A DNA stretch of 64,000 bases from positions 19,990,001 through 20,054,000 of the forward strand of contig NC_092674.1 of NCBI RefSeq assembly GCF_964355755.1, in the 5' to 3' direction. The position numbers and the translations under genes were made by a program. Positions within the stretch are counted from its first letter, which is position 1. Each line of letters begins with the position of its first letter. Below are positions 1,314 to 39,612 of this stretch, one piece after another. The notes below the pieces were generated by a model that was not told the origin of the DNA, did no database searches, and saw nothing but the letters and a program-made list of their open reading frames with translations. The DNA comes from Antedon mediterranea (taxonomy: Eukaryota; Echinodermata; Crinoidea; Comatulida; Antedonidae).

Positions 1314-4300
1314 TTAATTACATTGTACATGTATATTATTCACACTATTTACTTTGCATGGTACTGCATGTGACACACCAACCTCTGTCTTCTGTAGGTC
1401 TTCAGAATCATAAAGATTTTCAACATCTTCAATAGCAAGTTTCTTCCCAGTTCTTCTATCCCCACCCCCTCCCTTATTCCCAACACTCTTTTCACTTCTT
1501 TCCAACTCAGTCCCTTTCTTTTGGTCTCTATCTGATTCTTTACCAGTCTTTATTTGAAACAAACTCTTTTCAAATGCCATAATGCAATGTAGGTTACCGC
1601 CAGTTTTCTTTGTATTTCGCATTTGTTTGCCAAGATGCACTTTTCTAATGTTGATAAATTCTGGAGACTGGCAATTAACATCTGCAGAAATGTCTTCCCA
1701 TCTGCACAATAAAAAAAGCAAAAAAATGCCATAAAACACAACTTAAAACAGTAATTCAAATGTAAATCTAATGTGTGAAAATGTGAAGAACTTCTGATCT
1801 ACAAGGCTACACGTAATGAAAAACAGGCTATAAAGTTCATCACAAATACTTAAGTTAGCCCATATGTATCTACTGCCTGGCATAAATTCATTTCCATAAA
1901 AATACATAACATTGTGTGCTTTATCATACAGATATTGACTGCATAGGTGTATTATAACATTTGAGATCCCTTGAGGGAATTACATTTTTTTTCGAGGGAT
2001 TATATATTTTTTTGAAGCGTGTTGATAAAAGTAGTCAAAATCTATTTATTACATAGCCTTTGCGAAGATTGAATGCATAAAACACATGCATGTCATTTAG
2101 GTGCCGCCTTTACGTCGTTTCATAGTCTATAATTCACACTGCAGATACGGATACAATGATGACATCAATGGTCGGTTATCATTTCAACTATTCTAGTATT
2201 TACATTAGGCTATGTAATTAATATAACATATCAAAAATATGAATGCAGCACTTGTATATCTTTTGTTATGTTATTTTAAAAGGTAATTTCAACAATACCA
2301 ATTTACATAAATGGCTACTGTAATATTATATTTTAATTGTTATCGAATTATATATATATTTTTTTTACAATAATTTCAGTTTTTTATATTTGTTTGAGCA
2401 AATAATTGTCTTTCAAGAGATCAATACAAATAGTTCTATCGATAATACTAATTACCTAAAACAATGAATTCCTGGATGTTTACGACTTGGGTCACCAACT
2501 AAAATCCAAGTATCAACTTCCTCATCCGTCAAACACGCTCTGAATAAAAAGTTTACAGAAACATAAATATTTTATCCTCGGCCACAAAAAAATAAAAAAT
2601 TACATTATGTGAAAAAATAAAACATTACCTAAATGCATCCTCTGCCTTTTTGGGTACATCTTCAAATCCTATTGGACAAAAGTAATGATTTTGGCAATGG
2701 TAGATATATGTAGTATTTTTATCTTTTAAGCCATCTTTCAACATGTTCACAGCTTCTGGTGAAGTTCTTCCCATGGTGTGTCCTTTACCATGAGGTTTGT
2801 ATAAGTAATGAGAGCGCCCTCGTACACCAAAATTATCATTTAGTTGTCTGAACCATCTAAAAAAGTAAATAGAATAAGTTATGATAATTTTAAAAATATG
2901 CATCTGATAGTACATACAGATAACAATCAAGATACAAATATATATAAGGTCAAAAGTAATCTTCTTTAAAAAAATAAATATGTAAATTTGACCAAAGAAC
3001 CTATAACACAAGGTCCAAAGCATGTAACATTTTCGAAAAGGCATTGTTGGATATAATAGCGCCATTAGTGTGAACAATAGAGTAGTGTGTTCTCAACATG
3101 TTAGATAGGTAAAATCTTTGACTCTAAAACACAGGAATGATAATTCAAATTTACAATTTTCTTTGTGCTAAGGATACAAATACAGTATGTAGTTTGTGAA
3201 TTTTATACCATGTTTTTTCCCATCTTTTCTTAAAGTTTTTATAAAAATATTTTATCTATTATTATGCTCTTTATTAGGTCTATATTGATTGAATTAAGTG
3301 TTTTAAATGAAAAGAATTATAAAAAATTGCTTTGATTAACTCATTTATTGTGTAGTTGATCATAGAAAATCGTATATTCTTAGTTTTGAGAAGACTTAAT
3401 TATTATAATTTGTATTATATAAAATGTATATTCATGTAAATAGACCTGAGCCCTCTTAGTAATTAATAGTTTTACCTTTCTAGTTTGGAGAAGACTGTAA
3501 AAATGGAAGTGGGGAAATGGTGGCGCCCAGTGTGACCTTCGGACCCTATACTTCCGATACAGTGTTTTGAACGCAAATTGACAGAGAGGAGATTATTGTG
3601 TTATTCTTTGATTTGACACATGGAGTTCATTGTTGATTACTGTACCTCATAAGTGTGGCATTACCAGTAAAAGGTCCAAAACGAATATCATTGAATGGTG
3701 GTTTAAATCCGAAAACAGTCAGTGCTTCCTCCTGCGTTATTGGCCGAAGACTAAAAAACAATAATAATAATAATAAGAGTTTGGTTTTTTGTTTGTGAAA
3801 TATTCATCTAGGCGTTGCACACAAGCTCAAAATGTTTAAACTAAAATGATGACTTTAGAGGATTATATTGCAAAACTATTTGTCAAACATGCCAATGTCA
3901 AGAATACAGCATTGTAAAGCTTTCAACCAATCAAAGTGTAAATGATCCTTGACATACAGTATTATATGTACTTACTACATAACATGTATTAACATAATAT
4001 TGAAATTACCTTCCATTGCCAAGTGTACTAAACAAATAATTCCAACAAGATACAAGCGAAGACATTCCGCATGACTTGCTATATTGAGGCCGACTCATAC
4101 ATCTCCTAAATTATAAAAATATAAAACTTCAGAGATGAAAAATGTTGTGCTTTCACTACAATCCTACCATTGCAATAATTGTAGTGTATCTGTGCATTTA
4201 CAAACCAATATGTATTAAGACAAACTTGTAAACCTGCTCAATGATCTTTTTATTCTAACCTTCATGTCGTCAAGAATTTATCCATATTCTCTCCATTAAA

Positions 4301-15791: not shown

Positions 15792-17200
15792 TCATTGAAA
15801 ATATTCTTCCAGCGATGGCGGTTCAAGTTCAAAATAGGCAGATGTATTGTTCTTATACACACATGTATGTGCATTTGTAAGTATTCCAGAAACAATGTAC
15901 ATTTTGCCACATGCACTCAATTGCACTTTCTGAGACTTCTTATAGTCTGTAAATTTAAATATATTTACAATGTCACCAAATAGCCATTCAACGCTAATTC
16001 TGACTTTGGACATTGCCGCGTTGAAGGCCACTTGTTCTGGTGTTATCCGTACCGTCGGGAAAGGTGCTTGCAATTGTGGGCGCAATGGGTACGCAGGATC
16101 ACCATACACGCACAATACATTTCCCTGTGGATCATGTGATCTGGCCTCAAGCTCTGTCAACAGACCCGATTCACGAAGGAGAAATGCATCATGTCTCCTC
16201 CCTTCCACAGGTCCATATAGGTGAGCTATGAGGCCATTGGGAGCTGTCACTGACTGGAATTTCATGGCATGGATTCTTTTGTGACCATTATACATAACTT
16301 GTTGATGCTGATTTGGTCGGCATATTGGCCTTACGGTTCCATCAACGAACCCCCAACAGTTCCTCAAAGCAGCACCCTTTGTGTGTGTTGCCTCAGCAAA
16401 TTCCTGTAAATGTTGTGGGGATAACCATGGCTGGTCTAAGGATGAGATCCGATGTCTATGGATGTCGAAGATGTAGTTGGTCATCCACTTAAACGCCAAG
16501 TAAAGCTGTGGTACTGAACGTCCATAGTCCTTGATAAGATCTCCATATCTACAAGGATATGCATACCTTTGGAGTGTGATGCACAAAGCCTCAAGTCCAT
16601 CAATTTTCGACTTATTCTCCAGAATTACAGTTGGTGGCACCCCCAAAGCATGTTTCAGCCGGTAGATATCATTTTTCTGGAATCTAAGGGAAATAATAAT
16701 ACACAGTATATTTTAAATCTCATAATGGATAACATACATGATACTGGACATGTTATGGGCATCATATATTAATTTAATATTTAATCAACATTTATTACTA
16801 AATAGTAGCTTCTGTAGATAGTATAGTAGCCTACTAGGGCTATACATAAAAGAAAGCAATACCTTCAAGGTATATGGAAGTATAATTGTTAGTAACCAAT
16901 GTTAAATGTATTTAAGCTTTATAATGCCTTAACGTTATCTAGCCCTACCTAGTAGTAGATTATAAATTGATAAATAAAGTGCTACCCTGATTTAGCCTGA
17001 TGGTCGGCTTACCTGAAATAGCTGTTGCATTCATCATCGTTGAATTTATCCAAGTTGAATTGATATTCATCACTTTTATACTGAAAATCAGGATTACTTG
17101 GGGAATTCATACTATACAACATAATGAATTCTTCCTCGTCCAGAACATCTGATATATAGGCAGCAACAAGAGCATCTCGTACCCTATGTAGGTTCGCCAT
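15792..17200 (-). CDS. Harbinger DDE transposase (HARBI1-like nuclease), 2 exons, intact
   Basis: Exons 17200-17013 and 16683-15792, joined through a GT-AG intron with matching phase 2, give 359 residues. The catalytic core is visible: GFVDGT (Asp177), VYGDPAY (Asp258) and RISVEWLFG (Glu295), the DDE triad of the DDE_Tnp_4 / HARBI1 family. The region before it (KHALGVPPTVILENK, LCITLQRYAYPCRYGDL) is the helical part that precedes the nuclease domain in this family. I chose MANLHRV at 17200 as the start because the further upstream ATG at 17281 adds an uncharacteristic Cys-rich stretch and the family often starts near such a helix. The gene converges on the Myb/SANT gene with about 680 bp between stops. 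Confidence 0.92.
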
Positions 17201-20704: not shown

Positions 20705-21099
20705 CATGGGGTCCCCAACTTATGTACGAAAAGAAATATGCGGCCCGGTATAAACTGTATGACTATCGTCAATCATAATATAGACGGGAATATCGTTCTA
20801 ACCGCTCTTTATTATTATACTAAAAAGCGAACTGCTATTATCAATACAAAATAGAAAATAAATTAGTCATCCATAAAGTAATACAATTCACTATACATTA
20901 CAATTATAATGGCAATTCATAACTTAAAATCATCATACACATTTATTCAGTTATTATTATGACAACAACAACTGGGGCCCGCACTAGAAGCAATTAGTCA
21001 GGTGGCTTAGCAACAATTTTCAGGATTAACGTTACCGGCCGGACAAAAGTACCAAAATTGGCATGGAGTTTCCTTTCGACCTATCTATTGATTTTATCC

Positions 21100-21640
21100 G
21101 TGGAACCCACTTGATCGGGTCCGATTTTCCAAGATGGCGGCCAAAATCCAAGATGGCCGCCAGAAAAAAGGAAATGCCATATATCTGGCTGTAAGACTCA
21201 TAAATCAACAAATGGGGTGTCAATGTCAGGGTTTCTGGGTGTCACCGAAACAGAAGCTGGTCATGTCATGTTGCTCAGACCACCAATTTCCAAGATGGCG
21301 GCCAAATTTCAAAATGGCCACCAAAAAAATCAAATGTCATATATCAGACTGTAAAAATCAGAAATGAACAAATGAGGTGTCAATTCAGGGGTTTTTGAGG
21401 TCACTGTAATAGATGCTGGTCAAGCCATTTTGCTCAGGTCACCCAATTACAAGATGGCGGCCAAATTTCAAAATGGCTGCCAAAAAAGGAAATATTGTAT
21501 ATAAGGTTGTAAAAATCATAAATTAACAAATAAGGTGTCAATTCAGAGGTATCTGAGGTTACTAAAACAGATACTGGTCAAGCCATTTTGCTCAAGTCAC
21601 TCATTTCCAAGATGGCGGTCAAATTTAAAAATAGCCGCCA
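21100..21640 (+). repeat. Left array: four 160-bp units with AAGATGGCGGC
   Basis: The CAAGATGGCGGCC word recurs near 21131, 21291, 21451 and 21609, each followed by a second inverted-type word (AAAATGGCCGCCA or close) and a GTGTCAATTCAGGGGTTTCT-like segment. The spacing is 158-160 bp. AAGATGGCGGC matches the well-known YY1 binding consensus; whether that matters here is unknown. Confidence 0.88.
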
Positions 21641-21716
21641 ATTCTACAATGAAGGAAGGATCACTCAGGTGAAATGGTAAAGAATATTTAATTGTATTGA
21701 TTTTGTACATCGGCAG

Positions 21717-24273
21717 ACAATAGAGTACCTCAACCCAGGACAAATCCCAGTGATTACGTTTGACCAGCCTCTGTTCACGCTCGCCAAGTATGTACAATGG
21801 AAATGGCCAGATCTCTATGGTGAGAAAGTCTACGTAGTTATGATGGGCGGACTGCACATTGAGAAGGTGCTATGGAACAGTGTTGGTGATTTATTAGATG
21901 GGTCAGGTTGGACAACGGCTCTCACTGAATCTGACGTTGCTTCATCTGGAACAGCCGATTCATTCCTGAAAGTATCACACATTACCAGAACTCGACATGC
22001 CCATCAAGTCACTGTTCTTGTTCTTCAGCAGCTACTGAATGAAGCATTCAACCAGAGATCTAATATTGATGAGAGTTTGAACAACTGGCTGGAACAAATG
22101 TGTAAGAAATCTCCCACGTTCAAGTTCTGGAACATGATCGCACACTATGAGATTCTGATTCTCATATTTGTTAGAGCCCATCGGGAAAGAGACTTCCTAT
22201 TGTATGTTTCTGTATTAGAGGCACTCGTGCCATTGTTCTTTGCGTTAGATCATGTGAACTATTCTCGGTGGCTGCCTGTACACATTAGAGACATGAAGGC
22301 ATTGCCACAAGAGATCAAAATAATATGAGTTTGAAACTCGGAATCACTGGACAATCGCAAAGTCGTTACAGATACTCTGCGATTCCAATAGACCAAGCGC
22401 ATGAGCAAGAGAATAAAGTGGTGAAAGCATCCGGTGGTGTAGTAGGACTTACAGAGAATCCAGTTGCCTTCAGACGCTGGATGACTGCTGGACCCGAGCT
22501 TGCCAGACTTCTGAGACAGTATGAGAATGAATATATTATTCATGACGATGATCCGGAAAACCCAGCTAACTTTGAACACCATTAACAGGGACTTGCAGCA
22601 CAGAAAACCTTCCAGCGACAGGTTGATAGTCTATTTAACACAATACGCAAGATGGGAAATCCCTTCCTGTATGACTTCCCTGAGTTGGTAACTCTTGATA
22701 GTCGTAACTGCGCGAATGAGGCAGTAGTGGATACAATCCGTACACTAGAAGATACAGGCACAAAGAAGTATCAAGAGTATGTGAAGACCGTGCTCGTGGA
22801 TCGTAGTCGTTCCATACATGATACGATCTCAAAGAATTCACTACCCTTGCTCTCAACAAAGCTCAAAGTCAAATCAAAGGATTGCAAGAAAGTAAAGGTG
22901 CTTGAGAACAATGTGGCACTCTTCGGCCAGTTATACATTTTCTTACAAAATAGAGATGGTGACATCAGTGAATTCTTTGCACACGAAGTACAGTCGTATC
23001 CTCCATCCCTGTCTGAGTTTGGAAAGCTTAATTTGTCTGGTACCAAATGTCATCTGTTACAATGTATCGAATCAAACCACACAGAGGCACCTGTATTTTA
23101 TGACTGCAAAGTTCTGGATGGTGCGGTGACAGTACATGCATTACCTGTAATAAATGTCTCAACATTCCAAGAATATGCTGACAACGTGTTTATACCCCAT
23201 CTTAAACGTCAGCTACGTGACACAAAGCGAGTGGATGTTGTGAGGGACGAATACCGACCAGATAGCCTTAAGGAGGGAACCAGGGAGAAACGAGGCAAAG
23301 GTGTGCATAGAAAAGTATCAGGTGATACCAAGCTGCCGGGCAACTGGAATGACTTCCTCCGTGATCCAATCAACAAGAAAGAACTTTTTGAATTCCTTTC
23401 ATCAAAAGTTGCGGATTGCAGCATCCCTCCTGAGTGTTCGGTATATATCACAGCTGGAGAGCATGTTACATATGTTGGAATGCAGTTCAAAATGTCCAGC
23501 TGTAATCAAGAGGAAGCAGACACTAGGATTGTGTTTCACGTGAAGCACGCGTTGGAAAATGGAGCAAAATCCATCCAGGTGCGAACTGTGGATACAGATG
23601 TTGTCGTTGTTCTTATCAGTGTGTTTCATGACCTCTCTCATATAAATGCTGATCTTGATCTCTGGATAGCATTTGGAACTGGAAAGAACTCATTACAGTA
23701 TCAACGCCATTTGTGTACATCTCGGTGAACGCAAATCACGTTCCCTGCCAATTTTCCACTCCCTGTCAGGATGTTATACTACCTCAGCGTTTAGAGTTAC
23801 GGATGGCTTTCTTTATCTTGCCGCACATCCGTTTGAGCATCTTCACTTACATTCTGAATCATTTCAAAGAATCGAGAGACTAGTTGTCGTAGTTTATGAC
23901 AAAACAAGTAACGCCATGAATGTTAACAGTGCTTGGATGGAACTGTTCAGCCAGAAACAGCAAGCTGTTGACAAGATACCACTACTCAAATGCATTACTC
24001 CAGCACACTAGGAGGGCCGTATACCAAGCTGGCATCTGGACAACATGCATGTTATCTAAACAAACAAATCCGTGTCCAACCGACTATGCATGGGTGAAAG
24101 TTGGGAACTCATGGGAACCTGTCTGGTCTACCATTCCAGAGGCATTTAAAGCTTGCAGAGAATTTGTGAAATGTGGCTGCAAAAGGGCCTGTACAGTCTG
24201 CAAATGCAGCAAGCAAGGCAAATCTGCCTTGCACATCTCTTTGCCGGTGCACATGTTCATCCAAATAGGGTAA
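21717..24273 (+). pseudogene. Broken gene of an uncharacterised transposon-borne family (GGLHIE / EADTR / GCDTT-type, Cys-rich tail)
   Basis: One long protein can be followed across three frames: 21717-22328, then 22325-23728 with an in-frame TAA at 22583-22585, then 23673-24011, then to 24273. Family-like landmarks in order are VITFDQPLFTLAK, MGGLHIEKVLWN, GSGWTTALTESDV, SFLKVSHITRTRHAHQV, FALDHVNYSRWLPVH, AIDQAHEQ-type (here PIDQAHEQENK), VGLTENPVAFRRWM, RRGKGV-type, QEEADTRIVFHVKHA, VRTVDTDVVVVLI, SLPIFHSLSGCYTTSAF (GCDTT-like, with Asp changed to Tyr), YDKTSNAMNVN and a Cys-rich CGCKRACTVCKCSK end. I recall this arrangement from many unnamed invertebrate and fish proteins but know no assigned function. 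Frameshifts make this copy non-functional. Confidence 0.82.
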
Positions 24274-24394
24274 ATCAACTGTACTATAACTGTAAACTGT
24301 TATGTAGCTATTATAGAGCCAAGTAAACCTTTTTCATATATTATTTTTAATTTCTGATTTTTAACCCACATATGCCTACACAAAATTTTTGGAG

Positions 24395-24790
24395 TTTTTT
24401 TTGGCAGCCATTTTGAAATTTGGCCGCCATTTTGGAAATTGGTGACCGTAGCAAAATGGCTTGACCAGCATCTGTTTCGGTTGACCCCAGAAACCCCTGA
24501 ATTAATACCTCATTTGTTCATTTCCGATTTTTACAGTGACACACACATTTCCCTTTTTTGGCGGCCATTTTGAAATTTGGCCGCCATCTTGGAAATAGGT
24601 GGTCTGAGCAATATGGCATAACCAGCATCTGTTTCATTGACCCCAGAAACCCTTACATTGACACCCCATTTGTTGATTTACGAGTTTTACAGCCAGATAT
24701 ATGGCATTTCCTTTTTTCTGGGGGCCATTTTGGATTTTGGCAGCCATCTTGAAAAATCGGACCCGATCAAGTGGGTTCCACGGATAAAAT
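24395..24790 (-). repeat. Right array: three 160-bp units in inverted orientation
   Basis: GGCCGCCAT(C/T)TTGG-type words near 24424, 24581 and 24741 are the inverted counterparts of the left-arm units, again with about 160-bp spacing. The last one has decayed (GGCAGCCATCTTG). The arrays therefore form subterminal inverted repeats of unequal copy number. Confidence 0.87.
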
Positions 24791-25076
24791 CAATAGATAG
24801 GTCGAAAGGAAACTCCATGCCAATTTTGGTACTTTTGTCCGGCCGGTAACGTTAAAATTGCTAAGCTACCTGACTAAATAGCTTGTCTCATGAGGGCCCC
24901 TACAATACAAGTACAGTATGCAAATATACATAAAAGAAAAAACACATTATAAAACAATAAACAAAATATAAGTCAAAAACGAAAGAGAAAAAATATAGAG
25001 CATAACAAAAGTAAGTTGTAAACTAGCGCATATTTATATAAAATATTGAACCATTAGTCAATATAAATTGTTACAT

Positions 25077-28000
25077 TCAGTGCACTTTGACGTTGAGTCT
25101 ACTTCTACTTGAACCCTCCTTGATCATTCGATTAATTACATCAATTGGAATATTGCAATTACGCACGTCAATGCATTGAAGGTTAGGAAACACAGACAAC
25201 AAAGAAACCAGTAAATCGCCATCAATGTTACTCAGATTATTATCATTGAAATAGAGGTCAGTTACAAATAACAGAACTCCTCTATATAAACACCCTTTGA
25301 TCATTTGATTCATCATTTCACCCGATAGATGGCAATTGCTCATGAAAAGCTTAGGCCTAGGCCTATTGAATAAACAACCCATTAAAGCACCATCAATGTT
25401 ACTGAGGTTATTATCACTTATATTGAGTGAATTTGACACTGTATTTGAACACTCTCTGAGCATGTGATTCATTATTTCACCTGATAAATTACAAGCACTT
25501 ATATCAAGGTCAATCAGCGGACACATACATAATAAAGAACAGAGTAAAGTAACGTCAATGTCGCTGAGATTATTACCACTCATATGTAGCGTTTCTAAAG
25601 ATAAATGGGTTCGTCTTGAACATTCTTTGATCATTTGATTCATTATGTCACCTGATAGATTGCAATTATTCATGTAAAGGTTACCTATTCTTGGAAAAAT
25701 AATGAATAAAGAACCCAGTAAAGTACCATCAATGTCGTTGAGATAATTGCCACAGATTCTAAGCCATGACAATTTCTGATGTCTAAGATTTGAACACTCT
25801 CTGATCATGTGATTCATGACATCGCCAGTTAGATTACAATTATCCATTACAAGCATGGAAAGCATAGGGGTCATAGCCAATAAAGAACCCAGTAAAGTCC
25901 CATCAATGTTGTCGAGATTATTACCATCGATTGTTAGCCAATTTAGTGTTAATTGAACTCCCCTACTTGAACACTCTCTGACCATTTGATTCATTACGTC
26001 ACCCGATAGATTACATTTACCCATTTCAAGGTCCTTCAATTTAGGAGACATAATCAATAAAGAACCCAGTAAAGTTCCATCAATACTGCTGAGATTATTA
26101 TTTTGGATATCAAGTGTTTCTAATGCTAATTGAACTCCTCTAATTGAACACTCTTTGATCATATGATTTATTACCTCTCCTGATAGATTATGAATTGTAA
26201 GGGCGAGACATTTATCATCAATGCCTAAAATGTGGGCAATAATTCTTCCTTGGCAATCTTTTGCAACACTACTACAAAAGGTATCTAAAAAAGGGAAACT
26301 ATCGTCACCATAGATTTCTTCTAGTTCTTCATATACCATGCAATGAAGTTGCCTAATTAGACGTATGAAATGCCCATCACATTGTACATCTGGATTAATG
26401 TGATGAATAAAAAGCTGTATTGAGGTAGATATGAAATCTAAATGCTCACTTATTTCTAGATTTTTGCTAATCATGTGATTATTTAGTTTATCTACCACAG
26501 AAATCTCATGTTGTCTTTTAACAAAGTTTAAGCAACTAAGCAGAGATCGATACGTTGACAAATGATTTGTAAGCCAATGCATTAAAAATGAATCCGCTTT
26601 ATCACCAAGGAAACCAACTGCAAACTCTCTTGCTCTCTGTAAATACTCACATTCTCTTATCACCTCCCATTCATTACCATCTAATGGTGCAAGTAATTGT
26701 CTTACATCATCTTTGCATTCATCATTCATATCTTTACTTTCACATAATTTACACAAGTAAAACCCTACCAACGATTCTACAATTAACTTGTGAGGAGGCA
26801 TGAAAATGTTTTCAAAGTTAGATTTTGATATTGGCACTTCTTCATAAACAAATCCAAGTTTTAGGGCCATGTCAACTACATCTTTGTTCATTTGTTCATT
26901 TAAATCCTTTTTGCTAATTGAAAGCTGGTTTATCTTTAAGCTATAATACATACACTTTCCTAACAAAATCATAGCATTTACATATTCAATTGGAGTGTCT
27001 TCAAAACAAGAAATCTTTGGGAATTTTTCCTGTTTGTTAAACTGATTTAAAATACTACGAAATATTTCTTTGAAAAGGTCAGAATTATCTTCAGGAAGAG
27101 CTTGTTTTTCTTCCCATAGCATACACATTGAAAGAAGTAACATTGGATTTTTGCACATGGAATATGCTTCTGGATATCTTAATCCAGCATGTGAAGTGCC
27201 AATATCTAATTCTTTCTTAAGAGATTCACCCAATTCCGGTATTCCAAAATACAAAAAATGTTTGTCAATATACTTTCCTATGCTTTTGCTGTTAAATCCC
27301 TTAACTCTTACATGTATGTTACACACATTTACAAACTCATCTATGTTTTCTGATCGTGAAGTAAGTATTACAGTACTTTTCTCCAAGTTGTTCTTTCTGA
27401 AAAGACTAACTAAGCATTTATTATTAAATCTTAATTCATCTAATCCGTCAACTAATAACACAATTTTATCAGCATGCTTGTTTATGAATGTTTTAATCAA
27501 TTTTGAATCTTCTGGAAGATCTGTGACTAAATTAAAATCTTTCATATCCATTTGCTTTTCAATTAGACTGAAGATGTCATCATCTTCTTCACAATCTCTG
27601 ACACTTAAAAGAAATACAATTTTACCTTCAAATACTTCAATTGATTTGCTAGTCGCCCAGTTGTATGATAAACACCTTAATATAGTAGTTTTACCAATAC
27701 CTCCCTCACCGTCTACAAGAGCCCTACACCCAGGTGTGGAATTAATAGCATCCACCATTCCTTCTAATGTTGTTGGTGTGCTTTCTTTCTTTTCATTTTC
27801 TTTGAGTAGTTCCATATCGGTAAACATCTGTGAAATGTCAACTTTGTGTTTAGCATTCATTATTGCTGGAGTAAATACACTAGCCTGGCTGCACAAGTTC
27901 TTTTGTCTTTTAAGCAGATATTCTTCTATTATTTCTAAAACAAAATACAAATAAATATGATTAGTCAGAAAGCATGATTTTTAAAGCTGTTCTTTTAAAT

Positions 28001-35450: not shown

Positions 35451-35586
35451 TGTCACATATGTTCTGTTAATATGCTAATTATATTTGTTTGTTATTTGCA
35501 AATTATGCAAACTACGTTACGCTCGGTGAAGTAATAAAACAGTAGTTGAATTAAAAGAACCGTGTTGACGAGTCACACTTGTAATA
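35451..35586 (+). repeat. 5' LTR
   Basis: 136 bp, begins TGTCACATATG and ends CTTGTAATA, so the boundaries are TG..TA and not TG..CA. It contains an AATAAA near 35534. It is unusually short for this class. Confidence 0.95.
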
Positions 35587-35603
35587 TGGTGTCAGAATAG
35601 TGG
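35587..35603 (+). other. Primer binding site
   Basis: TGGTGTCAGAATAGTGG starts at the first base after the LTR; TGG pairs with the CCA tail of a tRNA. The TGGTGTCAG type is commonly ascribed to tRNA-Leu in Gypsy elements; I have not verified the tRNA. Confidence 0.75.
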
Positions 35604-35616
35604 AAATTCACTCAAA

Positions 35617-38600
35617 ATGGAATCGTTGAAATTTAAGCCGCCTCCACCCTTCGATTTTGATGGTCCTAGTGTGTCTGCTGCTTGGAAAAGGTGGAAACAG
35701 AGATTTACATTCTTTCTGAAAGCGACTGGCAGTGCACGTAAAAGTGGTGAAATAAAGGTAGCAATTTTAATTACTACACTGGAAGGGCGTGGCTTAGATA
35801 TTTACAACAACTTTACGTTCACTGATCTTGTAGGCGAACCGGGTCAGGAAGATTATGTCCCAGCAGAGGACAATAATGATTTTGATACAGTAATGTCAAA
35901 GTATGATGAATACTGTAATAAACGGGACCCGATAATGGCGTTACGAGCGCAATATTGGCAATATGAACGACCCGAAGGTCAGGGTTTGGATGAGTTTGTG
36001 AATGACTTAAGAACAATGGCGGTGAATTGTAAATTTGTGGATCAAGACGGTACGATTCGTGATAAGCTTTTCTTCAGTGTAACAAATCCAGTGATGAAAA
36101 TGAAAGTTATGGGCGATGATGGCAACGCTACACTTGATACTGTGATACACCGAATGAGAACTTTTGAGAGTTCTAGACGCGAGCTTGAAATGGCCGGTGT
36201 TGCAAGTGATTATAAGCCGAAGGTTCATGCATTGAGAAGAACCAAATCACATAAACAGACGCCAAGGGTTAGTGGTCAACATAATCATCAGTTTACGGAT
36301 GCAGCCAAAATTAAATGTAGCAGGTGCGGTTCTTCACATCTACCTCGTCAGTGTCCAGCTTATGGTAAAACATGCTACGGGTGTAAGGGTTTGAATCATT
36401 TTCAGTCTGTGTGCACCAAACGTTTTTCCCGAGGACGCGGTCGTGGACGTGGAAGAGCTGTACATACAATGGATGAACAGTATATTATTGCCGAAGGTGT
36501 AAGTGATCCTAATGACTTATACATTGACACTTTAACTGTTAAAGATAAAAATGAGTACTTTTATATTGACACTCTAAGAGATAACGATGACAAGAACGCT
36601 TGGTTCTATGATGTGTTTGTGGGAGGTAATGTGTTAAAGATGAAGCTTGACACAGGAGCAGGTGTTAACTGCATACCACTGGAAACATTTAGAAAGTTAC
36701 CAGGACATAAGAACATTAAAGTATATCATTCTAAAACTAACCTATATAGTTATAGTGATGAAATTGTAAAACATATTGGTAAAGTTACTCTAAATGTAAA
36801 AGTTGATAACATCCAAAATGATTATGACTTCTTTATTACTAATGTTGATGGTCCACCTATACTTGGATTGAAAGCCTGTAGGGAGCTTGGTCTGATCAAA
36901 CGTGGTAACAATATGATGTGTAGTGATAATGTGATAAATAATAAATATGTACATGCACTAACTAAAGATTCTTTGATTCGAGAGAATCGTGATGTATTTA
37001 CAGGTTTAGGTAAATATCAAGATCCTTATGACATCAAGTTGAAAAGTGGTGTTTCTCCAGTAGTCCATCCACCCCGCAGGGTGCCACTTAGTCTGCATAC
37101 CAAGCTGAAAGAAAAACTGGACGATATGGAGAAGAGGGGCGTGATTAAACGGACCGACAAACCAACAGATTGGGTCAACAGCCTAGTGATAGTGGAGAAA
37201 CGAGACGGATCCTTGAGGTTGTGTTTGGATCCACGTGATTTGAACAAAGCCATTAGACGTGAACATCATATGATACCGACCGGTAAGGACGTAGTGAGTC
37301 AGCTGTCAGGTAAAACACTTTTCACTGTCTTTGACCAGAAAGATGCGTACTGGCAAGTTCCTCTTACTGACGCTAGCGCAGATATATGTACATTCAATAC
37401 TCCCTTTGGACGATACAGTTTTCTAAGAATGCCATTTGGTATCTGCAGTGCTAGTGAGGTGCTACAGAAAGGAAACCAGCAAATATTTGGTCATATACCT
37501 AACGTACACATAATATCTGATGATATGATTATAGCTACAGGTAGTGAAGCAGAGCATAATGCAACAGTACAGAGGGTGATGGATACGGCCAGAGCGAACA
37601 ATGCCAAATTCAATGGAAGCAAGCTTAAGTATAAACAGTCTGAATTGGTGTTCATGGGAAACGTGGTGAGTGCCGATGGACAGAAACCAGACGAAGAAAA
37701 GGTTAGAGTTATCAAAGAAATGCCTGACCCACAATGTAAATCTGACTTGCAACGTATAATGGGGATGCTTAATTATCTTTCACAATTCATACCTAATATG
37801 TCCAATGTGAGTGCACCTCTCCGGGAATTGCTCAAGAAAGATGTTGCATGGTTTTGGGGTCCAGAACAAGCAGAATCCCTGAGGCAGTTAAAGGCGTTGA
37901 TTAGTAGCAAACCAGTCTTAAGTTTCTTTGATCCACAGAAGCCAACCATTATCCAATGTGATGCATCATCCACAGGGCTCGGAAGCTGTTTGCTTCAAGA
38001 GGGTCATCCGGTTGCGTTTGCCTCTAGGTCGTTAACATCAGCTGAAGTTAATTACTCACAAATTGAGAAGGAGATGTTGGCGATCTGCTTTTCTATACAC
38101 AAATACCACCAATATGTATATGGCCGAGCTGTTGAAGTTCACACTGACCATAAACCACTCGAAACAATCACACGTAAACCACTCCATAAAGCTAGTCCTA
38201 GAATACAACAAATGCTGCTCAAATTGATAAAGTATGAGCTTGATGTTAAGTATGTTCCTGGAAAGTACATGTACATAGCTGATGCTCTCAGCAGAGCATA
38301 TCCTGATAAGGTTGATCGTGATGCCCAACCCCTTGAACAGTTGAAATATAGGGTGCATAGTCTAGACGAAATATTGCCCATGAGTAAAGCAAAAATTGAA
38401 GAAGCAATACGAGCTACACATGCAGATGTGGTACTCCAAACTCTAATTCTAACATGCAAAAGCGGGTGGCCTAAACATAGATGGGGTGCACCGGAGCAAG
38501 TTAGGCAGTATTGGCATCTTCGTGATGAGATACATGAAATTGATGGTCTTGTGTTTTTAGGTGAGAAGTTGATTGTTCCTAGCCAAATGAGAGCAGATAT

Positions 38601-39612
38601 GCTGAATAAAATTCATGAAAGTCACCTTGGGATGGAGAAGTGTAAGGCGAGGGCCAGGTCTATTTTGTATTGGCCAGGTATGACCAACGATATAGAATCA
38701 GTAGTGTCAAGGTGCCCTGTTTGTGTAAAGTTAATGCGTAGAAATCAACGGGAGCCGATGATTCCACATAAGGTTCCTATGAGACCATGGGCTAAGCTGG
38801 GCGCGGATATATTTACATTCGCTGGCAGAGATCATCTTATTGTAGTTGACTATTTTTCCAAATACCCGGAAGTAGTGACACTCACTAGCAAAACGGCTGG
38901 AGAAATCATCAAAAAATTGAAATCTATATTCTCAAGACATGGCATCCCTGAAATATTAATGACGGATAACATGCCGTTCGCCAGCTACGAGTTCAAACAG
39001 TTTGCTAACCAGTGGGGGTTCGATTTAGTGACGTCCAGTCCGACATATGCCAGAAGTAATGGGCAAGTTGAACGTTTCGTCCAAACCATTAAGCAACTCA
39101 TGAGGAAGTCCGTTGATGAGGGAAGCGATTTTCATCTTGCTCTACTAGACTATCGTGATTCACCAATTGCAGGGTTGAATTGTTCTCCTGCTCAGTTGTT
39201 GATGAGCAGAAAGTTAAGGTCAACACTTCCAGTCACACATACATTGCTGCAACCACAAGTTATTGTCGGAGCTAGAGATTTCCTTCAGTCACGTCAACAG
39301 TCTATGACAAAATATTATGATCGTGGTACACGTGTATTGACGAAACTAAGAAAAGGGGACAACGTGAGAATATTGAAAGGACGGCAATGGGAACCTGCTG
39401 TTGTGGCTAAGGAACATGAGCTACCCCGTTCATATGTAGTGATGACCGAAGATGGAACGTCGTACAGACGGAATCGACAACATTTATTAAACACTCAACA
39501 ACCGGATACTTTGCAGAAGGGCGTACCAACTTTGCAGAAGGTACCGGAAGCACCACCCTTACGTAGAAGTGATCGTGTTAGTCGTCCACCGGATCGATTG
39601 GATTATAAATAA
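35617..39612 (+). CDS. Gag-Pol polyprotein of the LTR element, 1331 residues
   Basis: A single frame without stops. Residues 1-220 are a Gag-like region. Two CCHC zinc knuckles lie at 234-246 and 253-266 (CX2CX4HX4C each). A basic GRGR run follows. The retroviral-type protease has DTGA at 345-348 and ILGL about 75 residues later. RT runs from about 470, with LRLCLDPRDLN, the FDQKDAYWQV motif and the catalytic box ISDDM near 631. RNase H has IIQCDASSTGLG, EKEMLAI and TDHKPLE. Integrase has the HHCC finger (HESHLG, CPVC) and a DDE core (GADIF, TDNMPF, NGQVERF). A chromo-like or other tail is not obvious. There is no frameshift between Gag and Pol, so they are made as one product. The ATG at 35617 lies 14 bases past the primer site. 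Confidence 0.96.
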   Translation: MESLKFKPPPPFDFDGPSVSAAWKRWKQRFTFFLKATGSARKSGEIKVAILITTLEGRGLDIYNNFTFTDLVGEPGQEDYVPAEDNNDFDTVMSKYDEYCNKRDPIMALRAQYWQYERPEGQGLDEFVNDLRTMAVNCKFVDQDGTIRDKLFFSVTNPVMKMKVMGDDGNATLDTVIHRMRTFESSRRELEMAGVASDYKPKVHALRRTKSHKQTPRVSGQHNHQFTDAAKIKCSRCGSSHLPRQCPAYGKTCYGCKGLNHFQSVCTKRFSRGRGRGRGRAVHTMDEQYIIAEGVSDPNDLYIDTLTVKDKNEYFYIDTLRDNDDKNAWFYDVFVGGNVLKMKLDTGAGVNCIPLETFRKLPGHKNIKVYHSKTNLYSYSDEIVKHIGKVTLNVKVDNIQNDYDFFITNVDGPPILGLKACRELGLIKRGNNMMCSDNVINNKYVHALTKDSLIRENRDVFTGLGKYQDPYDIKLKSGVSPVVHPPRRVPLSLHTKLKEKLDDMEKRGVIKRTDKPTDWVNSLVIVEKRDGSLRLCLDPRDLNKAIRREHHMIPTGKDVVSQLSGKTLFTVFDQKDAYWQVPLTDASADICTFNTPFGRYSFLRMPFGICSASEVLQKGNQQIFGHIPNVHIISDDMIIATGSEAEHNATVQRVMDTARANNAKFNGSKLKYKQSELVFMGNVVSADGQKPDEEKVRVIKEMPDPQCKSDLQRIMGMLNYLSQFIPNMSNVSAPLRELLKKDVAWFWGPEQAESLRQLKALISSKPVLSFFDPQKPTIIQCDASSTGLGSCLLQEGHPVAFASRSLTSAEVNYSQIEKEMLAICFSIHKYHQYVYGRAVEVHTDHKPLETITRKPLHKASPRIQQMLLKLIKYELDVKYVPGKYMYIADALSRAYPDKVDRDAQPLEQLKYRVHSLDEILPMSKAKIEEAIRATHADVVLQTLILTCKSGWPKHRWGAPEQVRQYWHLRDEIHEIDGLVFLGEKLIVPSQMRADMLNKIHESHLGMEKCKARARSILYWPGMTNDIESVVSRCPVCVKLMRRNQREPMIPHKVPMRPWAKLGADIFTFAGRDHLIVVDYFSKYPEVVTLTSKTAGEIIKKLKSIFSRHGIPEILMTDNMPFASYEFKQFANQWGFDLVTSSPTYARSNGQVERFVQTIKQLMRKSVDEGSDFHLALLDYRDSPIAGLNCSPAQLLMSRKLRSTLPVTHTLLQPQVIVGARDFLQSRQQSMTKYYDRGTRVLTKLRKGDNVRILKGRQWEPAVVAKEHELPRSYVVMTEDGTSYRRNRQHLLNTQQPDTLQKGVPTLQKVPEAPPLRRSDRVSRPPDRLDYK

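Follow-up and report, generated by a model that had tools for sequence, protein, structure and literature searches.

A stretch of 64,000 nucleotides of the crinoid Antedon mediterranea (hereafter called the window; the genome comprises 354 Mb in 18 contigs) contains a 3.9-kb segment in which inverted arms with tandem repeats enclose a degenerate gene. The question raised by this locus is whether it represents a type of mobile element not described so far, as proposed in a first-pass annotation made from the sequence alone, which left it unclassified. We consider it highly probable that the segment is a decayed, non-autonomous cut-and-paste DNA transposon of the Academ superfamily, in its nuclease-bearing (AcademX-type) lineage. 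The family found in the window is new, and the superfamily already has a name.

Borders, target sites and copies of the element

Collecting other genomic copies and aligning the full ones, the checks proposed in the first-pass annotation, yielded no fewer than 17 additional copies, full or partial, in the same genome as well as exact ends and a 3-bp target-site duplication (TSD). The left 727 bp alone gave 46 genomic matches, many of them arranged as inverted pairs 2.9 to 3.9 kb apart. As the full-length copies compared share 93-99% identity, the spread of this family is not ancient. In the aligned ends of the fetched regions, the copies start with TAGTCAGGT and end with ACCTGACTA, and the window element therefore extends from 20995 to 24876 with AAT on either side, rather than from 20974 to about 24900 as initially annotated.

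20995..24876 (+): whole transposon copy, 3,882 bp, TAGTCAGG...CCTGACTA, with ends common to at least 11 other full-length genomic copies
20992..20994: TSD AAT, left copy; an uninterrupted host-repeat copy has AAT once
24877..24879: TSD AAT, right copy, from the end alignment and the uninterrupted host-repeat copy

The arms had been thought to start with GGGGCCC. The GGGGCCC (20974) and GGGCCCC (24894) marks lie outside the element, ~14 to 24 bp from its ends, and neither was found at the ends of other element copies. A query made of both window flanks joined, with one AAT kept, retrieved a dispersed repeat, many copies of which are continuous across the junction. The empty site is gap-free in two aligned copies of this host repeat, one with a single AAT (L080) and the other with a near match (L081), and the alignment assigns the GGGGCCC marks to the repeat. 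GGGGCCC was thus rejected as a terminus, since it belongs to the host repeat and no other copy has it at its ends.

The flanks (20875-20994 and 24880-24999) place the transposon within this dispersed repeat, an unassigned one with more than 30 copies that bears GGGGCCC...GGGCCCC. Part of the same repeat also occurs as a ~60-bp tandem array at C5:31018645-31019418.

Exact 3-bp TSDs were present at 15 of 17 insertions belonging to three related families, with a 4-bp match at one of the 17, while shuffled flank pairs gave a mean of 1.3 matches of 3 bp in 17 and a maximum of 7 (20,000 shuffles). In the window family, 10 of the 12 independent insertions match (AAT, TAC, AAA, TAA, AAA(A), TAA, ATT, ATA, AAT and AGT) and two do not. 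The other two families, called here L062 and L064 after loci with intact genes (see below), have 3-bp TSDs in three of three insertions (CTA at L062, TCT at L063 and TGG at a third copy) and two of two insertions (CCA and ACA at L064 and L065), respectively. Among the insertions examined, we found no flank match longer than 4 bp, such as the 8-bp matches of hAT/P type, and no TTAA duplication of piggyBac/Kolobok type.

Some copies deserve mention on their own. Two C9 copies located 419 kb apart (L012 and L013) share the same flanks and therefore stem from a segmental duplication, not from separate insertions. A lone left arm, broken within the array (L025, 650-1063), is bordered on both sides by an exact 31-bp direct repeat of the neighbouring DNA; this is a one-ended or aberrant insertion in which the repeat replaces the usual 3-bp TSD. 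A 6.2-kb copy on C2 (L010) was discarded as an intact long copy, because it owes its extra length to an insertion that encodes a reverse transcriptase, a fragment of non-LTR type in the middle of the gene (about 2283-4124). Finally, the terminal 110 bp of the L062-type transposon recur at 40 or more places in the genome. Many of these share one value of identity, 94%, suggestive of a short non-autonomous derivative that has been amplified.

Inverted arms and subterminal arrays

The long inverted arms reported in the first-pass annotation are real: their outer 214 nt are 97% complementary, and inward of these lie tandem units of ~158-160 bp, in opposite orientations on the left and on the right. 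The innermost 'units' consist of a conserved word block alone. The count of four left and three right units thus becomes three full and one partial on the left and two full and one partial on the right, with the opposite tandem arrays themselves standing as described. The length of the array differs between copies, and so 'four versus three' is no fixed property of the element. Each ~160-bp unit harbours two words 19 bp apart, where one had been noted, in a register fixed relative to the ends in the copies examined. Allowing at most one mismatch, the word AAGATGGCGGC occurs eight times in the 64 kb, compared with 0.36 expected, and all eight occurrences are within the element.

20995..21641 (+): left arm, with the outer TIR region, three full ~160-bp subterminal units and a partial fourth (arm comparison and unit alignment)
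21131..21157 (+): paired words of left unit 1, starting at 21131 and 21150, 19 bp apart (word positions)
21292..21318 (+): paired words of left unit 2, starting at 21292 and 21311 (word positions)
21451..21477 (+): paired words of left unit 3, starting at 21451 and 21470 (word positions)
21609..21635 (+): word block of the partial left unit 4, second word eroded (word positions)
24396..24876 (-): right arm, with two full units, a partial third and the outer TIR region (arm comparison and unit alignment)
24407..24433 (-): paired words of the partial right unit 3 (word positions and count)
24564..24590 (-): paired words of right unit 2 (word positions and count)
24724..24750 (-): paired words of right unit 1 (word positions and count)

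Within the unit, conservation is highest in the paired word block, and this holds for truncated units and for the L026 family, which is 74% identical. This conservation argues for a role in binding. The GATGGCGGC arrays are subterminal repeats and most likely serve as transposase-binding sites, and their earlier interpretation as binding platforms is plausible. The same conservation might instead reflect platforms for a host factor of YY1/Pho type, involved in expression or targeting, and the paired word matches the YY1 consensus named in the first-pass annotation. However, the L062 family, with the same architecture and TSD, has a different subterminal tandem repeat and no AAGATGGC arrays, and the sequence of the array tracks the TIR family, as expected of transposase-binding sites. 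The lack of the array in the L062 family argues against a YY1-type host factor being generally required and favours a family-specific transposase. We therefore regard host-factor platforms as unlikely, and it appears quite unlikely that a YY1/Pho-type factor reads the paired GATGGCGGC words for expression or for the pairing of the ends.

The decayed gene and its intact relatives

As described in the first-pass annotation, a decayed gene is found between the arms, and its MGGLHIE, EADTR, DTDVVVV and GC(Y)TT motifs and Cys-rich tail are distributed over several frames.

21681..22328 (+): open frame with homology to the transposase half (...PVITFDQPLF...MMGGLHIE...DHVNYSRWLPVHIRDM), without the segment of the first catalytic Asp (DNID)
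22289..22585 (+): next gene fragment, in another frame and terminated by a stop
22586..23728 (+): 380-aa open frame covering the linker and the greater part of the FEN1/XPG-like domain, cut off by a frameshift near 23700
23670..24011 (+): remaining nuclease domain, in another frame, GCDTT changed to GCYTT
23920..24273 (+): remnant of the Cys-rich (CXC-like) tail, in a third frame

The FEN1/XPG-like motifs of the 380-aa frame comprise the first Asp (23117-23119), EEADTR (~23510-23527) and DTD (~23591-23599), and the change of GCDTT to GCYTT implies that the last catalytic Asp of the nuclease was replaced with Tyr. In tblastn analyses, all window-family copies tested begin at or after residue 83 of a relative's protein. 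Together with a spacing of just about 60 bp between the left array and the gene, this means that the upstream part, which bears DNxD in relatives, is missing. Given the absence of the first catalytic Asp segment, the stops, the frameshifts and the loss of the nuclease Asp, the window copy is non-autonomous and decayed. Since the family spread although the first part of the gene is missing from all copies examined, we infer that it is a deletion derivative mobilised in trans. Sequence searches with the window protein against Pfam and PDB gave no significant match.

The genome holds related open frames of up to 1,547 aa. Intact relatives have frames of 1,064-1,247 aa in elements of 6.75 and 7.74 kb. 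L062 (6,750 bp) and L063 are a 99.2% identical pair with a 1,064-aa frame, their own TIRs, TAGTGG(A/C)GTCTGTTAGGG, and inverted tandem subterminal repeats unlike those of the window family in sequence. L064 and L065, 99.99% identical over 7,744 bp, encode a 1,247-aa protein and have short TIRs, TAGGCCATCGGGTGAA. The TIRs of the three families start with TAGTCAGG, TAGTGG and TAGGCC, that is, all with TAG. Because the intact relatives sit inside their own TIRs, the gene is the element's own transposase gene; of the two roles raised at first, transposase or accessory cargo, the former is retained and the latter is not. We found no relatives in viral contigs and phages, and nothing significant in PHROGs and PADLOC.

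The 1,247-aa protein of L064 harbours a DUF6589 domain at residues 290-582 (28.3 bits for a Pfam cut-off of 27), in the same reading frame as the nuclease-like region, and a CXC-like tail (Tesmin/CXC Cys-rich family) at 1190-1223 that scores below the Pfam cut-off. DUF6589 is weakly matched in the closest relatives (14.8 to 19 bits). In their N-terminal halves, the aligned relatives have in common DNxD and, further on, an Asp (DQxxY), both invariant, as well as GxxH, NY and some other residues; this set is as expected for a putative DDD/E transposase with a His motif. An RNase H-like DDD/E domain is a candidate assignment here, the features observed being DUF6589 above its cut-off in L064 and the two invariant Asp sites plus GxxH in the relatives; the DNxD segment is absent from the window copy. 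Pfam scans of the intact relatives revealed no helicase, and neither DDE_Tnp_4 nor any other named transposase domain.

In the middle region, D49, K57, R64, E147, D149, D170, D172 and D229 are invariant in all 12 aligned sequences, and D6 is found in 11 of them. The active site of human FEN1 consists of D34, D86, K93, R100, E158, E160, D179, D181 and D233. The residue steps are 43-8-7-83-2-21-2-57 in the transposon family, compared with 52-7-7-58-2-19-2-52 in human FEN1 and 53-7-7-58-2-19-2-49 in the Methanocaldococcus enzyme (1a76). The EADTR...DTDVVVV...GCDTT order, previously singled out as a possible mark of a nuclease, hence follows the active-site pattern of FEN1/EXO1/XPG: the full set of conserved residues is present in the same order and with close spacing, although the domain is here fused to a transposase and overall sequence identity is very low. 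Profile searches for a nuclease fold had also been proposed at the outset. Against PDB, a 9-sequence profile had Exonuclease 1 near the top (E 0.35), and after three more diverse members had joined the alignment, the 12-sequence profile had Exonuclease 1 in first place (E = 0.0048), with the alignment falling on that enzyme's catalytic motifs, VFD...K...R and GCD. In contrast, HHalign with the shallow 9-sequence alignment against four archaeal FEN1 proteins aligned the GCDTT region alone, not significantly. As single-sequence AlphaFold prediction of the fragmentary window protein reached a pLDDT of 34.5 and HHalign was not significant, the nuclease fold is predicted from the residues and one modest profile hit. 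At the residue level, these data make a clear case for a predicted FEN1/XPG-type nuclease fused to a transposase. The nuclease of AcademX elements is known as XPG-type.

Superfamily assignment and proposed transposition

AcademX elements have TSDs of 3 or 4 bp and encode a nuclease, whereas AcademH elements have TSDs of 9 or 10 bp and a helicase, TSD length in Academ being related to the encoded helicase or nuclease (PMC10045372; Kapitonov and Jurka 2010 and Kojima 2020, as cited therein). In bivalves, Academ are among the longest DDE transposons, with a mean of 5,565 bp (PMC10294476). A nuclease, 3-bp TSDs and the lack of a detected helicase match the AcademX description, as do TIRs, autonomous relatives of 6-8 kb and a single ORF combining the DUF6589 half, the nuclease and the Cys-rich tail, and the label 'unclassified' can be dropped. 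Known superfamily hallmarks in copies elsewhere had been named as an argument against novelty, and such hallmarks in kind are what we found, with 3-bp TSDs in three families whose TIRs start with TAG. The window copy differs from AcademX elements in that it is 3.9 kb long, decayed, devoid of the first catalytic segment and equipped with long subterminal arrays of its own sequence. AcademH is reported in the same superfamily, but its helicase and 9-10 bp TSDs are both missing here. Foldback-type elements also have long arms built of tandem units; here, in contrast, the arrays are subterminal, and the element is defined by its 3-bp TSD, its short conserved ends and a family of transposase genes.

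Academ membership is strongly inferred from described features rather than from a sequence match to reference Academ proteins. Since Pfam assigns no transposase to these proteins, one could envision an unnamed superfamily of DUF6589-nuclease transposons, distinct from Academ and merely having the same 3-bp TSD. This seems rather improbable, as the combination of a nuclease domain, a 3-bp TSD, a long autonomous element and an animal host is that reported for AcademX. PIF/Harbinger and CACTA elements also generate 3-bp TSDs, some of those seen here being TAA-like, but these assignments are extremely unlikely and, barring a hidden second gene, are refuted by domain content: DDE_Tnp_4 is missing from the intact relatives while the same search detects it in a genuine Harbinger-type gene of the window, the TSDs go beyond TWA (TAC, AGT, TCT, TGG, CCA), and the TIR starts differ from the CACT(A/G) of EnSpm/CACTA.

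For an AcademX-type transposon, the following scheme appears most likely. Through its DNA-binding part, a full-length transposase from another element would bind the paired GATGGC words of the subterminal arrays, and the transposase would bring the two ends together. The putative DDD/E domain would then cut the element out and join it at a 3-bp staggered target, and the FEN-like nuclease domain may trim or open DNA ends, or process flaps, during excision or joining. Having been mobilised in this manner, the window family would subsequently have decayed.

The locus is thus removed from the candidates for an undescribed element, with exact ends, a TSD, an empty site and a superfamily supplied. 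The gain is a modest one, namely the residue-level argument that the unnamed EADTR/DTDVVVV/GCDTT family is a putative FEN1/XPG-type nuclease fused to a transposase. The very similar insertions and the intact related families provide material on the role of a repair-type nuclease in transposition.

Other genes of the window include a 306-aa open frame at 15792-16712 (-) coding for a PIF/Harbinger-type transposase (DDE_Tnp_4, Pfam E 7e-25). Near the right flank of the transposon, a 967-aa open frame at 25077-27980 (-) codes for an NLR-type receptor with a NACHT domain and leucine-rich repeats. An uninterrupted 1,347-aa frame at 35569-39612 (+) codes for a Gypsy/Ty3-type polyprotein (RT, RNase H and integrase zinc-binding domains).
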